From: Methanomicrobiales archaeon
GTDB lineage: Archaea > Halobacteriota > Methanomicrobia > Methanomicrobiales > JACTUA01
Length of the DNA stretch: 64,000 bases
NCBI GenBank assembly: GCA_030019205.1
Contig: JASEFH010000013.1
Coordinates: forward strand, 1 to 64,000
Direction: 5' to 3'
The position numbers were made by a program, and so were the translations under genes. The notes under the pieces were generated by a model that was not told the origin of the DNA, did no database searches, and saw only the letters and a program-made list of their open reading frames with translations. Of the stretch, positions 40,829-64,000 are shown in pieces; the first letter of the stretch is position 1, and each line of letters starts with the position of its first letter.

Positions 40829-41659
40829 CTACTCTCTCCCGCCATACCGCTGCACGTGCTCCCGGGCCTTCCGGTATCTCCCGTCCCGATCCCCGCCGAT
40901 CGACGCACCCGTCCGCCCGTAGAACCTCCAGTCCTCCCCGACGGGGCAGACCGCGATGCAGATGCCGCAGGGCGAGACGCCTCTGCGGTTCAGCGCGGCG
41001 CTTCTGGCAGCGCAGGCCCGCCGGTCCGTCAGGCTCTCGGGATACTCCCCGCCCTCCAGCGCATGCGCCGGGCAGAGCCGCACGCACTGCAGGCAGCGGG
41101 TGCAGAGGTCGCCCGGGAGGATCGGATCCGGCGGGATCTCCGCCGCGGTGAAGACGGACCCGAAGCGGACCCTCGGGCCGTACTGCGGCGTGAGGAGGGT
41201 GTTGTTCACCCCGAACGTCCCCAGCCCCGCGAGGAAGGCGGCATGCCGCTGCGAGAAGAAGGCGATCGGGTTGTTCAGGAGCGCCTCGACGCCCGCATAC
41301 CCGTCCCGGGGAACGAAGACGGAGGGATGGCCCTGCTCGTTCAGGAATGCGGCCAGCCGGTACGTGTACTGGTCCAGGTGCGCGTTCACCGCGGTGTAGA
41401 GCTCGCGGTAGTAGATGGAGGGGGCCGTCTCGACCACCGGCAGGTGGACGGGCAGGCCGATCACGACCACCGAGCGGGCCTCGGGGAAGATGGACTGCGG
41501 GAAGAACTCCGGCGGCACCCAGGGCTCGAACGGCGGATCCTCCCAGCGCTCCACGTTCGCCACCCCGACGAGGGGGATCTCCATCCGGCGGCAGCGGCGC
41601 CGGAGGGACCGCTTCAGATCGGCACGCATATCCTCAGGTACTCGTACGCAGCCTCCCAT
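40829..41659 (-). CDS. 4Fe-4S protein, epoxyqueuosine reductase-like
   Basis: A 276-residue protein with an N-terminal domain like QueG (PEARSVVVIGLPVHLP, HLDQYTYRLAAFL, GLGTFGVNNTLLTPQYGPRVRFG). It ends in ferredoxin motifs CTRCLQCVRLCP and CGICIAVCP. QueG itself is a cobalamin enzyme; this protein is shorter than QueG and lacks the HEAT-like tail. It may be a related oxidoreductase rather than an epoxyqueuosine reductase. ATG at 41659 is one choice; further upstream in-frame ATGs enter the AT-rich region. Confidence 0.8.
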   Translation of the reverse strand: MGGCVRVPEDMRADLKRSLRRRCRRMEIPLVGVANVERWEDPPFEPWVPPEFFPQSIFPEARSVVVIGLPVHLPVVETAPSIYYRELYTAVNAHLDQYTYRLAAFLNEQGHPSVFVPRDGYAGVEALLNNPIAFFSQRHAAFLAGLGTFGVNNTLLTPQYGPRVRFGSVFTAAEIPPDPILPGDLCTRCLQCVRLCPAHALEGGEYPESLTDRRACAARSAALNRRGVSPCGICIAVCPVGEDWRFYGRTGASIGGDRDGRYRKAREHVQRYGGRE

Positions 41660-41966
41660 AATCGTATCCGCGTAATACGGAATCTGAACAATGACCATGT
41701 GATGGTGTAAGGGAGAGTTTGAGGGGCAGAATAATGCACTGAATGCCATCAGGGATCCCATGGATTTCATCGATCGTCATTACGAAGTTCCGATTACCCG
41801 TGGTCTCAACAGGTTCATCATCGGCTAATGGGACATCGTTGTTCCCATAGAAGATGGGACACGTTTAACAGCATATTACGCACCCCTTCAAATGCCTAAT
41901 ACTCTGCAAAGCCATGCAACACAATCTTTATTGTTCGTTATGTAGATTACCCAAAACGGTGCGAGT
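41660..41966. other. Left edge of AT-rich island
   Basis: Composition falls from GC-rich to AT-rich within this spacer, from about 41690 on. No gene is seen. CAATCTTTATTGTTCG near 41927 may hold the TATA element of the following gene. Confidence 0.4.
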
Positions 41967-42875
41967 ATGTCTGGATTGCGAGATTGGTTGTTGGGAAAGT
42001 GTAGCGATCCTGTTGAACAGTATCTCCTTGAAGTATACAAAGGACTGCGTTATCATGCTACTTGGGAGCCGAATAGTCCATTGGAAGTGGGAGATATTGG
42101 GACTGTAAAGAACAATCAGTTTATATACGAATCGGACCTCGAATCGAAAGGAATCGATTTTAAAATTCGTAAAGATCGAACAAAAGGGGATATGTTTTAT
42201 GCGTCAGAAGGTGGAGTGAACTTCTTCGCAAAAGCTGCAGGAAACGCCAATATCATAAAGGGGTTGCTGGGTGGAGTAGAAGCAGATTTCGCGATTCAAT
42301 TTAAAAGAAAAAACGCGACGTATCTATCCCTCGGAGAGACGTTAACCCACTCCATTCGCGATCAACATGCCGTGGCAAAAGAAATCGAACAAAGATATCA
42401 TGATGGGAAATGGGAATCAAATTGGGCTGTCGTTACGGAGCTGATTGAGGCGAAAAACGGCATCATTCTGATATCTGGAGAGAAAGAGTCCAGTGTGGGA
42501 TTAAATCTTGCAGGCGAAGGGAAAATCCCCTACACCGACATTAATCTTGCTAACGCAAAGGTAGGTCTGCAATTAGTGGGAGGCCATTCCCTATTTCGTA
42601 AATTCTGTACTTGTGAAGGAATCACCCCCCTTCTTAAAATTTTCCAGATGGAAGAGCAGATACAAACGACGAAGCAACCGCTGAGATATTCAGGATATAA
42701 GGGGGCGCACATAGATTATGCGAGAGAAAATGGCAGTACATTTACAATCCCGGGGGAAACCAGGGTGGATCGGCGTATGCACTCCAACGAGGCGAAATTT
42801 AAACCTATAGAAACAAAGGCGAAATTTGTTGAAAAGGAACTTGATGTATCGCAGTTTACATCCTATACAGTTTAA
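41967..42875 (+). CDS. Orphan AT-rich protein; possible pore-forming (gasdermin-like) fold
   Basis: A 302-residue soluble protein not assigned to any family. It is visibly AT-rich in codon choice, unlike all neighbours, which suggests recent transfer. Predicted order: short helix with Cys12, strands (about 40-75), a strand-helix-strand block VEADFAIQFKRKNATYLSL / helix / NWAVVTELIEAKNGIILISG, then SSVGLNLAG and an EGITPLLKIF segment. The VVTELIEAK...ESSVGLNLAG pattern recalls the strand pair of gasdermin N-domains (VVTEVL...GSGRFSLPG in human GSDMD). This is a weak visual resemblance, not a demonstrated homology. No protease gene, usual beside bacterial gasdermins, is adjacent. GGTG lies before the ATG. 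Confidence 0.75.
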   Translation: MSGLRDWLLGKCSDPVEQYLLEVYKGLRYHATWEPNSPLEVGDIGTVKNNQFIYESDLESKGIDFKIRKDRTKGDMFYASEGGVNFFAKAAGNANIIKGLLGGVEADFAIQFKRKNATYLSLGETLTHSIRDQHAVAKEIEQRYHDGKWESNWAVVTELIEAKNGIILISGEKESSVGLNLAGEGKIPYTDINLANAKVGLQLVGGHSLFRKFCTCEGITPLLKIFQMEEQIQTTKQPLRYSGYKGAHIDYARENGSTFTIPGETRVDRRMHSNEAKFKPIETKAKFVEKELDVSQFTSYTV

Positions 42876-42883
42876 ATCCTATA
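42852..42883 (+). repeat. Tandem 16-base duplication at gene end
   Basis: CAGTTTACATCCTATA is followed directly by CAGTTTAAATCCTATA, 15 of 16 bases identical. The first copy encodes the protein's last residues and the second contains the stop codon. It may be a replication slip or the scar of an insertion boundary. Confidence 0.85.
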
Positions 42884-42890
42884 TATAGGA
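42877..42890. repeat. 14-base perfect palindrome
   Basis: TCCTATATATAGGA begins two bases after the stop codon of the orphan gene and overlaps the tandem duplication. It could be an operator/promoter element or part of a boundary structure. Confidence 0.6.
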
Positions 42891-42974
42891 GAGATTGTTC
42901 ATTCATCGATTGGGCAAGTATGTGATCCGCGGCCAAACTTGCCCAGTCTCGCTAACGCAGGGGTGGAGCCAATA

Positions 42975-43000
42975 GCCCCTCGGGTAAGCTACCGAGGGGC
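42975..43000. repeat. Strong GC hairpin in the AT-rich island
   Basis: GCCCCTCGG and CCGAGGGGC form a perfect nine-base-pair stem around an eight-base loop. It lies 100 bases after the orphan gene. It could terminate transcription, or be a relic of a mobile element end; no transposase is recognisable. Confidence 0.65.
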
Positions 43001-43547
43001 AACATTCTTCAATTATGCCCTGAAACCAGAAATTAGGGAAGAAGACTAAGTTCCCTCCTTCTTCAGTCAGGATCGGTACGCCCATACCACCTATGCCCTG
43101 CAGCGAGAGATGAAAGCACTCGATATCCTGACTGATTAAGCCTTCCAGAACGGCGATGCTCATCAGGTCATCACGTATTTAGACGAGTATGGGTTTACCA
43201 TCGTTCCAGCCGCTCAACCCATCGTACGCGTTCAATGCTTTTCCTCACGCTTAGCTTATGATCTTGAACTTCTCGTGATAGGTCATCCCATCTTCACATA
43301 CGGCATTTAATCGATTTCTGCACAATAATTGAGCCCTTTGCCACAATATTTTCCAATCTACCTCGTGTAATATGGTGCAGGCAGAGATCGCTGATAGAAT
43401 GCGGAAGTATACTCCTTTGGCCTGAAACCTGTCCGAGTGTTTCAGCCATGTGATCTCGGAATGCGAGCGGGGCGGGGAACGGGAGGGGTCCGGGCATCGG
43501 AAAAGCTTGCCCGTTGACAATCCGCCCGATCTCCCCGCGGTCCCGCA
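43001..43547. other. Gene-remnant region of the island
   Basis: On the plus strand, about 43068-43250 reads protein-like segments (YALQREMKALDILTD, stop, AFQNGDAHQVITYLDEYG, FTIVPAAQPI) interrupted by stop codons. This looks like a decayed gene whose family I cannot identify. Right of about 43430 the sequence becomes GC-rich again, marking the island's right edge. No intact gene is supported. Confidence 0.4.
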
Positions 43548-44294
43548 TCACCGCGCCATCAGCGCGAACACGCCCCATCCGAGGTATTCACGCGTGTACG
43601 CGGCGTATCGTCTTGGCTCCTGAGCCAGTCTGGCTCTGACATCGTTCGCGAAGTCGTCGTCGGGATTCGCGTCGAGCCATCGGCGCATGGTGAGCCACTT
43701 GGCCGCCTCGTACCTGTCCCAGCCTTCCTGGTCGGCCAGGACCATCTCCACAACGTCGTAGCCGAGGTCGCCAAAAGACGCGAGAAGTTCCGGAAGCCTG
43801 AGAAAGTCGGAGATGGAATGGGCTTCGCATCCCCGGGCAACGTCTTCCGTCGGGGGCAACTTCCGCCAGTAGGGCTCGCCGATGAGGATGATTCCCCCGG
43901 GGCGGAGACTCTTCGCCAGAAGGCGGATGGTGCCGGCGACTCCCCCGCCGATCCACGTGGCACCGAGACAGGCTGCCACATCGACCTTCCCGTCGGCGAC
44001 GTAGCCGGCAGCGTCGCCGTGGATGAACTGGACGCGATCGGCGACTCCGAGTTCTTCGGCGCGGAGTTTCGCCTGCTCGGTGAACAACGGGCTCAGGTCG
44101 ATGCCGACGCCGGCGATCCCGTAATCGCGTGCCCAGGTGCAGAGCATCTCGCCCGAACCGCTGCCGAGGTCGAGCACACGGGCCCCCGGTTCCAGGCGCA
44201 ACGCTGCGCCGAGAGTGGCGAGATTTTCTGGTGTGAACGGGTTATGGATGCGGTGAGCACTCTCGGCAATGGTGAAGATCCGCGGGATATCCAT
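43548..44294 (-). CDS. SAM-dependent methyltransferase
   Basis: A 248-residue class I methyltransferase. Motif I is VLDLGSGSGEML near residue 40, the acidic GIDLSP follows, and the HGDAAGYV and LLAKSLRPGGIILIGEPYW segments complete the Rossmann core. The C-terminal part is rich in Asp, Trp and Arg. The substrate is not evident. It abuts the AT-rich island and has no co-oriented neighbour. ATG at 44294 begins DIPRIF, the usual start. Confidence 0.88.
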   Translation of the reverse strand: MDIPRIFTIAESAHRIHNPFTPENLATLGAALRLEPGARVLDLGSGSGEMLCTWARDYGIAGVGIDLSPLFTEQAKLRAEELGVADRVQFIHGDAAGYVADGKVDVAACLGATWIGGGVAGTIRLLAKSLRPGGIILIGEPYWRKLPPTEDVARGCEAHSISDFLRLPELLASFGDLGYDVVEMVLADQEGWDRYEAAKWLTMRRWLDANPDDDFANDVRARLAQEPRRYAAYTREYLGWGVFALMAR

Positions 44295-45197
44295 CGTACA
44301 AACTCCGATTACTGCGTTGTGCACGAACGGGCATATACCCTTCGTGACCGGAGTGGATAAAGGGTTTGAACTATCCCGCTACAGCCCCAACGGTTCGATT
44401 TGTCGCTCCGGTGTTCCGTACGGAAACCTGAACGCGCACTCTTTCATAAACAGGGGGAAGAATCCGGCCGGATCCCCCTATCGCTCATCAGCACTCTTCC
44501 GGCCGGATTCCCCAAAAAATTTTCAAATGCCATTGCTATGATTCTCACCCCCCCCGGCAGCGCGGGGTAAAGGATTCATCCGCTGATGGCGAAACCTGCC
44601 GACCTCCAACGCCCTGGAACGCTTCTGTCTGCAGGGACAATGGCTCCCGGGGGCCATTTTAGCGATCACGGGCATGAGCCCTGATCTTTTGGTGTCTTCA
44701 ACAGCGACCGTGTACACGGTGCCGCCTCTCTGAGACGCAGCTGCTTTCCCGGCCGCACCTCTTCCTCGTTCGCATCCGCGCACACCGCCAGACACGGCTC
44801 CCATCAGGCTCAATACAGCCATTAAAATAACTTCACCGCCCTGAAGCGCCGGATGATGGGAGAGGGTGTGCCGGATCTTCGGTATCGAAAAGAGCTGCCG
44901 TAGGGGGGGGAACGGCAGATTCGCTGCCGATCCGGCGGTACCTTCCCGCACGGGATAGTCAAGCCGCCCGTGTTGCGTAATTTTTATTTCAGTCGGTTGG
45001 CTTCATGGATTTGCCCGCTGGCCCGTCCGGTACAGCCCCAAAAACGGGCTGGCGTGAAAAAATGCACGGTTTACCCGCCCCCGGGAGCCTCCCCGGCGAC
45101 CGCACGAGCGGGGAGGGTGCAGAGCCCCTCCGGCGGAGAGGACGTCCCGGGGCATGTTCCACCTCCGATGGGGATCGCGGCAGAGCCAGAAAACATT
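44295..45197. other. Gene-free region with inverted repeat
   Basis: About 900 bases with no recognisable gene. A minus-strand frame at 44523-44951 has a short hydrophobic stretch (ILMAVLSLMGAVSGGV) but otherwise low-complexity, basic sequence and no ribosome site, so I leave it out. The inverted repeat at 44460-44510 lies here. Confidence 0.4.
44460..44510. repeat. Inverted repeat of GAATCCGGCCGGA
   Basis: GAATCCGGCCGGA at 44460-44472 is repeated inversely as TCCGGCCGGATTC at 44498-44510, followed by CCCCAAAAAATTTT. Each arm is itself centred on a palindrome (TCCGGCCGGA). The pair could fold as a 13-base-pair hairpin with a 25-base loop. It may be a terminator-like or operator structure upstream of the methyltransferase. 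Confidence 0.65.
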
Positions 45198-63166: not shown

Positions 63167-64000
63167 TTACCATGTCCAGATCGGAGCGCGATATGGTACC
63201 AGCCGAGGATAACGATCTGATATATCCTCTTGAGTCCCTCCGATGTACACGCGCTTTACCCTGTCAGGAGAAAAGATGTCGTAGTATTCAGTTTTATTGA
63301 ACCACCGATCCTTGTAAGACTCAATTCCTAACACGTGATAATGACCATAAGCATCGGGATCGAAATACCACCACTCATCCCCGATCTTCACTTCCACCCA
63401 GGCATGGTTATTTGTCACAAATTCGAATATGAGAAACTTCTCAACAAGGTCCGCACCAACTACCCGTGTCTCAAAACCTGCTCTATTGGATACGTTTGCA
63501 AACAGATGGGCCAATTCGCCACAGGCACCCAGTTTATTGTAACTGATCCAGTAAGGATCGTTAGTGAATGGATTTTTCCCAAATATTGAATGCTCTGCCC
63601 TGATTTTGCCTGTCGAGGGATCATAACGATACCTGTTAATCGGTGGATCCAAGGTCTGGAGTATGATATTGCGATGCAGGTATCTCTCCCAGAATAATTC
63701 CGTGAAATTGGTTGTCACCCATTCGGCAATCCGATTTAATTTCTCTACTTCATGGGGCATGTCTTGAACTTCATCAAGTATGGTGCTGATCTGTCTCTCG
63801 CCTTCTGGCTGAATTATTACTTTATATTGTATCGAGAAGTACACATCCAGTGCTCGAGAGGTATTCAAAGCCCAGTAGAACTGAGCGGGTACATAGAAGG
63901 CGACGAAGGCTACGAGTACGACCATATACAGTCTGCCAACCAACCCCAAAATGAGGGTAATTCTTCTTTTTAAGGGATACTTTTGGAGACTATCTTCTTT
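63167..64000 (-). CDS. Membrane-anchored transglutaminase-like protein, cut by window edge
   Basis: The frame is open to the right edge of the window. An N-terminal membrane helix is preceded by KRR (positive-inside) and followed by an extracellular transglutaminase/protease-like domain with Cys in LGACGELAHLF, His in NHAWVEV and Asp in YFDPDAYG, the complete catalytic triad. If the start lies inside the window only TTG codons near 63949 fit; a start beyond the edge is more likely because the KRR segment would otherwise be lost. Sequence is more AT-rich than the average of the window. Substrate unknown; cell-surface protein processing is plausible. Confidence 0.8.
   Translation of the reverse strand, partial: KEDSLQKYPLKRRITLILGLVGRLYMVVLVAFVAFYVPAQFYWALNTSRALDVYFSIQYKVIIQPEGERQISTILDEVQDMPHEVEKLNRIAEWVTTNFTELFWERYLHRNIILQTLDPPINRYRYDPSTGKIRAEHSIFGKNPFTNDPYWISYNKLGACGELAHLFANVSNRAGFETRVVGADLVEKFLIFEFVTNNHAWVEVKIGDEWWYFDPDAYGHYHVLGIESYKDRWFNKTEYYDIFSPDRVKRVYIGGTQEDISDRYPRLVPYRAPIWTW

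Follow-up and report, generated by a model that had tools for sequence, protein, structure and literature searches.

A gasdermin-like candidate pore effector encoded in an AT-rich island of a Methanomicrobiales genome

What kind of protein is encoded by a solitary AT-rich gene in an otherwise GC-rich stretch of archaeal DNA, and does it belong to a working defence system? The gene, referred to here as P0001, lies in a window of 64,000 nucleotides, the whole stretch that was analysed, from a Methanomicrobiales archaeon whose genome (2.73 Mb, 99.6% complete) has Methanogenium among its same-order relatives. A preliminary description of this DNA had proposed that the gene is foreign and that its product might be related to gasdermins, which form pores in inflammatory cell death. 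The reading that we favour, with a probability of about 0.6 and on the basis of sequence comparisons, is that P0001 is a divergent gasdermin-like pore effector that was horizontally acquired and is carried without its protease.

The foreign composition of the gene is real. The open reading frame is intact, begins with ATG, and has a GC content of 43.1% (GC3 41%). By comparison, 1-kb windows over the whole 64 kb average 65.2% (sd 4.8%), and the lowest of them, at 43.5%, falls on P0001. A second AT-rich stretch begins at ~62.7 kb of the window, so the low GC of the gene is not unique. The surrounding island is single copy in the genome and is bordered by genes for an Fe-S protein (40829-41640, -) and a methyltransferase (43548-44324, -). 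In G005, a genome of the same family, the same two border genes enclose unrelated DNA, indicating that the slot is variable. Besides P0001, no intact gene was found in the island. Stop-broken, coding-like pieces lie on either side of it, at 41705-41830 and 43046-43310 (+), reading FEGQNNALNAIRDPMDFIDRHYEVPITRGLNRFIIG and YALQREMKALDILT...AFQNGDAHQVITYLDEYGFTIVPAAQPIVRVQ, respectively; they have no match in Pfam and are perhaps the remains of other acquired genes. As a separate observation, the bordering methyltransferase gene shows 83-91% DNA identity to its counterparts in several families of this order, a level not seen in its neighbours. This suggests a recent transfer, and the site may be prone to acquiring genes.

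The preliminary description had also placed the gene among duplications, palindromes and hairpins. Two strong hairpins are present directly 3' of P0001, and no shuffled sequence folded as well as either of them. The duplications and palindromes, in contrast, are mostly weak: a 20-nt two-copy repeat has 80% identity, and an inverted repeat at 43058-43140 reaches a z of -2.0. The region contains no Rfam family. The coordinates of these and other features are collected in Table 1.

Table 1. Features of the P0001 locus, in window coordinates
Feature	Position	Strand	Basis
AT-rich island, ~1.8 kb	41650..43500	.	Composition
GGTG, possible ribosome-binding site, 5 nt before ATG	41958..41961	+	Read from sequence; putative
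Gasdermin-like gene P0001, 302 aa	41967..42875	+	Intact ORF; homologues by tblastn/HMM
N-terminal family motif, residues 29-45 (YHATWEPNSPLEVGDIG)	42051..42101	+	Most conserved family block; D43 and G45 invariant
Core segment, residues ~104-185, holding VVTELIEAK...SSVGLNLAG	42276..42521	+	Profile versus PDB, hhalign, shuffles
C-terminal tail, residues 223-302, 80 aa past conserved TPL; candidate autoinhibitory and cleavable region	42633..42872	+	Tail lengths; function putative
Hairpin 33 nt past P0001 stop codon	42908..42948	.	Inverted repeat, z -3.8
Second, stronger hairpin (GCCCCTCGG...CCGAGGGGC)	42975..43000 (approx.)	.	z -4.75

Searched alone, P0001 gave nothing useful against Pfam, PADLOC, NCBIfam and the PDB, no model of these libraries recognises it, and a related-locus search with it in genomes and viruses returned none. 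A combination of tblastn and profile searches uncovered a rare family, found in Methanogenium, in one genome of another family of the same phylum (G502) and in scattered bacteria. The archaeal members come from Methanogenium cariaci, Methanogenium sp. MK-MG and G502. The Methanogenium copies are broken by a frame error or a contig end, and the M. cariaci record has further apparent one-base errors, as judged by comparing sequences. Bacterial members occur in Gemmatirosa, Embleya, Mesorhizobium, Streptomyces, a Burkholderiales MAG, Paracidovorax oryzae and several Pseudomonadota genomes. The frequency is 3 of 393 genomes in the phylum sample (source genome counted) and 2 of 398 in Pseudomonadota (the query's own genome counted).

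Sequence support for the membership of P0001 in this family is strong: it matches the Gemmatirosa protein at 5e-16 over 84% of the query, and a family profile built without it at 2e-21. Members are marked by ATWLPG...GDxG at the N-terminus, VVxxVxxAxxATILIS in the centre and TPL towards the end of the core. In the family tree P0001 forms a long branch, and the tree points to no particular donor. Two further apparent relatives (L005 and L006) were rejected as false matches, their translations being aldolase/synthase-type enzymes. AT-rich composition and orphan status alone would fit a foreign gene of unrelated function, such as a viral or plasmid passenger, an adhesin or a metabolic enzyme. This we consider highly improbable, given that viral scans with other family members yielded no phage or viral-contig relative, that the homologues have protease-type neighbours, and that the profile matches gasdermins.

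The link to gasdermins holds for the family and not for the single sequence, since P0001 by itself has no gasdermin match. A 16-member family profile containing no gasdermin found the bacterial gasdermin 7n50 as its best match in the PDB (E=0.0057). A core-only family profile, likewise without gasdermins, ranked 7n50 first among 177,635 PDB sequences (E=0.0035, the next match at 0.44), and omitting P0001 from the family profile gave E=0.008 against 7n50. The core segment is colinear with residues ~98-182 of 7n50, and the block singled out in the preliminary description (residues 155-183) falls inside it. None of 20,000 shuffles reached the score of the 7n50 segment, while 34 of 20,000 reached that of the segment from a second bacterial gasdermin, 7n52, a slightly biased figure because this fragment was picked by a profile that included 7n50.

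Profile-profile comparison pointed in the same direction. With hhalign, the family aligned to the combined 7n50 and 7n52 segments with a probability of 83.5% over 102 colinear columns, to the 7n50 segment alone with 58%, and to the 7n52 segment alone with 6%. In the controls, none of 300 shuffles of the 7n50 segment reached the real score (maximum probability 5.8%), and an unrelated protein of the window gave 0.3%. When 7n50 was added to the family profile, the only other gasdermins found in the PDB, 9v2s and 7n52, took second and third rank, colinear and with E=0.24-0.31. Bacterial gasdermins are mutually as distant, the 7n50 segment matching 7n52 with E=0.66. The curated NCBIfam model prok_gasdermin (NF051890) matches the Mesorhizobium member weakly in the same region (E=0.14) and has no match in P0001 or its genome; its 100-bit cut-off is reached by no family member, the best being P0003 with 11.9 bits. 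A 499-codon frame (L037) with a weak match to this model was dropped, as it lacks the family motif. A search for further true bacterial gasdermins found none in plasmids or phages and none above the cut-off in 398 Pseudomonadota genomes. Profile comparison thus shows the family core to be a distant homologue of bacterial gasdermins, with a modest signal for any single profile. The original guess is largely supported by the family-only profiles and by hhalign, but neither by the curated model nor by structure prediction.

AlphaFold runs with six sequences gave two low-confidence models (pLDDT 32 and 39), and Foldseek with the second of these returned no significant match, only unrelated weak ones. 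Such models, together with the modest single-profile E-values, would also be compatible with an effector that is cut by partners of the CHAT, subtilase or transglutaminase-like kinds and that is a beta-rich protein of another sort, namely another pore former or a nuclease-like or lipid-binding protein, whose gasdermin match reflects chance or a convergent beta-strand pattern. Partner-protease logic is common to other prokaryotic defence effectors, for example nuclease-protease pairs (PMC12799240). We nevertheless regard this explanation as unlikely, because matches to two distinct bacterial gasdermins fall colinearly on a shared region and outscore shuffles, because the PDB searches show no competing fold, and because fungal gasdermins are known to pair with these classes of protease.

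Among characterised groups, the family can be compared first with the bacterial gasdermins (7n50, 7n52, 9v2s; NF051890). It shares with them a colinear core, homologous by profile, a size of ~245-300 aa, a short tail with no large helical C-terminal domain, and, for the bacterial relatives of P0001, protease-type genes next door. It differs in lying far below the curated cut-off, in partners that include TIR-like plus transglutaminase-like proteins, and in archaeal copies that have no partner and longer tails (79-81 aa, versus 38-61 aa in bacterial members). It also differs at the N-terminus. Most, but not all, bacterial gasdermins carry a palmitoylated N-terminal cysteine (C3/C4-like). This cysteine is not conserved in the family: none of the ten N-termini listed has a cysteine in its first 10 residues, and P0001 has Cys12 only. 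No transmembrane helix was found in P0001 (best 19-residue hydropathy mean 1.05), as expected for a soluble pore-former precursor. Because the sequence signal is moderate, the fold models are of low confidence, and both the palmitoyl-cysteine and the partner are absent, we use the label "gasdermin-like" and do not treat P0001 as a curated prok_gasdermin member.

With respect to mammalian gasdermins, the strand-helix-strand block VVTELIEAK...SSVGLNLAG presumably resembles that of GSDMD and GSDMA. Yet no mammalian gasdermin surfaced in the PDB profile searches with the family, which also lacks the large helical C-terminal repressor domain. The fungal HET-Q1/RCD-1 class, which occurs with Q2-like S8 or CHAT proteases (PMC10989679), resembles the family in its two-gene clusters and in proteases that often carry TPR repeats. 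The likeness drawn here is one of gene context; the hosts of the P0001 family are prokaryotic, and P0001 itself is not part of such a cluster. Fungal gasdermins are known to be paired with CHAT or S8 proteases (PMC10989679, PMC12881547), S8 accounting for ~60% and CHAT for ~17% (PMC10989679).

The neighbourhoods of the bacterial family genes follow a consistent pattern. A protease-type gene is adjacent or within 2.5 kb in all eight bacterial loci with readable flanks (6 independent lineages). In Embleya and Streptomyces, a TPR-CHAT protease gene adjoins the family gene; in Mesorhizobium, a CHAT gene lies 2.5 kb away; and in G1098 and G1154, a subtilase gene overlaps the end of the family gene. 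In Gemmatirosa, the Burkholderiales MAG and Paracidovorax, a TIR-like plus transglutaminase-like protein is encoded just upstream (L009:3453-4973, L017:6426-7967 and, at L018, an upstream ORF at 540-2663). Its transglutaminase-like end matches DUF553 (E=0.011) and Transglut_core (E=0.17), both below cut-offs, and has a conserved C381...H411, while its TIR-like N-terminus was recognised by eye only. The two copies scanned with PADLOC (L009 and L017) match none of its models, and this protein together with the gasdermin-like gene is a candidate for an undescribed defence pair. On the Mesorhizobium plasmid (L011, 5382-14350), the family gene is clustered with SUMF1-like, ASCH-domain, hypothetical and CHAT-domain genes, with RES NAD+ phosphorylase and restriction endonuclease genes nearby. 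This cluster looks like a defence island.

In contrast, none of the three archaeal loci with readable flanks (the window, M. cariaci and G502) has a protease-type gene among the neighbours scanned. The difference between 8/8 bacterial and 0/3 archaeal loci gives a Fisher p of 0.006, an optimistic value in that near-identical bacterial pairs were counted. The preliminary remark that the gene stands without its usual protease neighbour was correct. A genome-wide search for CHAT and caspase (C14) domains found neither in the source genome.

These absences bear on the second half of our question. The main alternative to the favoured reading is that P0001 is gasdermin-like by descent but has lost its partner and no longer belongs to a working system, the AT-rich DNA being the rest of an acquired segment. 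It overlaps with the favoured reading, since it leaves the identity of the protein untouched and asks only whether the system is still functional. The lack of a partner in the window and of CHAT or C14 in the genome is consistent with such a loss, as are the flanking DNA, made up of stop-broken pieces only, and the absence of the gene from close relatives, with other DNA in the slot of G005. On the other hand, the reading frame is intact and the family motifs are kept, and the Methanogenium and G502 copies are likewise long-tailed and without a protease neighbour. We consider partner loss possible but the less probable account. The protease-free, long-tailed state, being common to the archaeal copies, suggests a stable archaeal arrangement and not one decayed locus. 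More tentatively still, archaea might have a gasdermin clade of their own that operates without a protease gene dedicated to it next door, with control by the longer tail and an unlinked cutter or other trigger. If so, archaeal gasdermin-type cell death would be wired differently from that of bacteria and fungi.

If P0001 is a gasdermin-like pore effector, it would be synthesised in a soluble, monomeric and inactive form, restrained by its ~80-residue C-terminal tail. Infection or stress would lead to cleavage in or before the tail, and the freed N-terminal part of ~220 residues could then insert into the membrane and assemble into an oligomeric beta-barrel pore, killing or arresting the cell in a form of abortive infection. 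In the source archaeon, cleavage would have to be done by a protease from another locus that belongs to neither the CHAT nor the C14 group; failing that, P0001 would be what is left of a system that has lost its other half.

Gasdermin genes are known from archaeal genomes, where their function has not been studied (PMC10989679). Neither the curated gasdermin model nor the Pfam and PADLOC libraries used here pick up the present family, suggesting that prokaryotic gasdermin-like systems may be more numerous than current counts show. With the TIR-like plus transglutaminase-like protein, the family brings in a new type of partner, and its partner-free archaeal copies allow a direct test of what cleaves an archaeal gasdermin. 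In the second AT-rich stretch of the window, 63167-64000 (-) encodes a membrane-anchored protein in which a transglutaminase-like Cys...His motif (CGELAHLF...NNHAWVEV) was recognised by eye. Since transglutaminase-like proteins partner the bacterial relatives, this protein, unlinked and 20 kb away, is a possible candidate partner of P0001.
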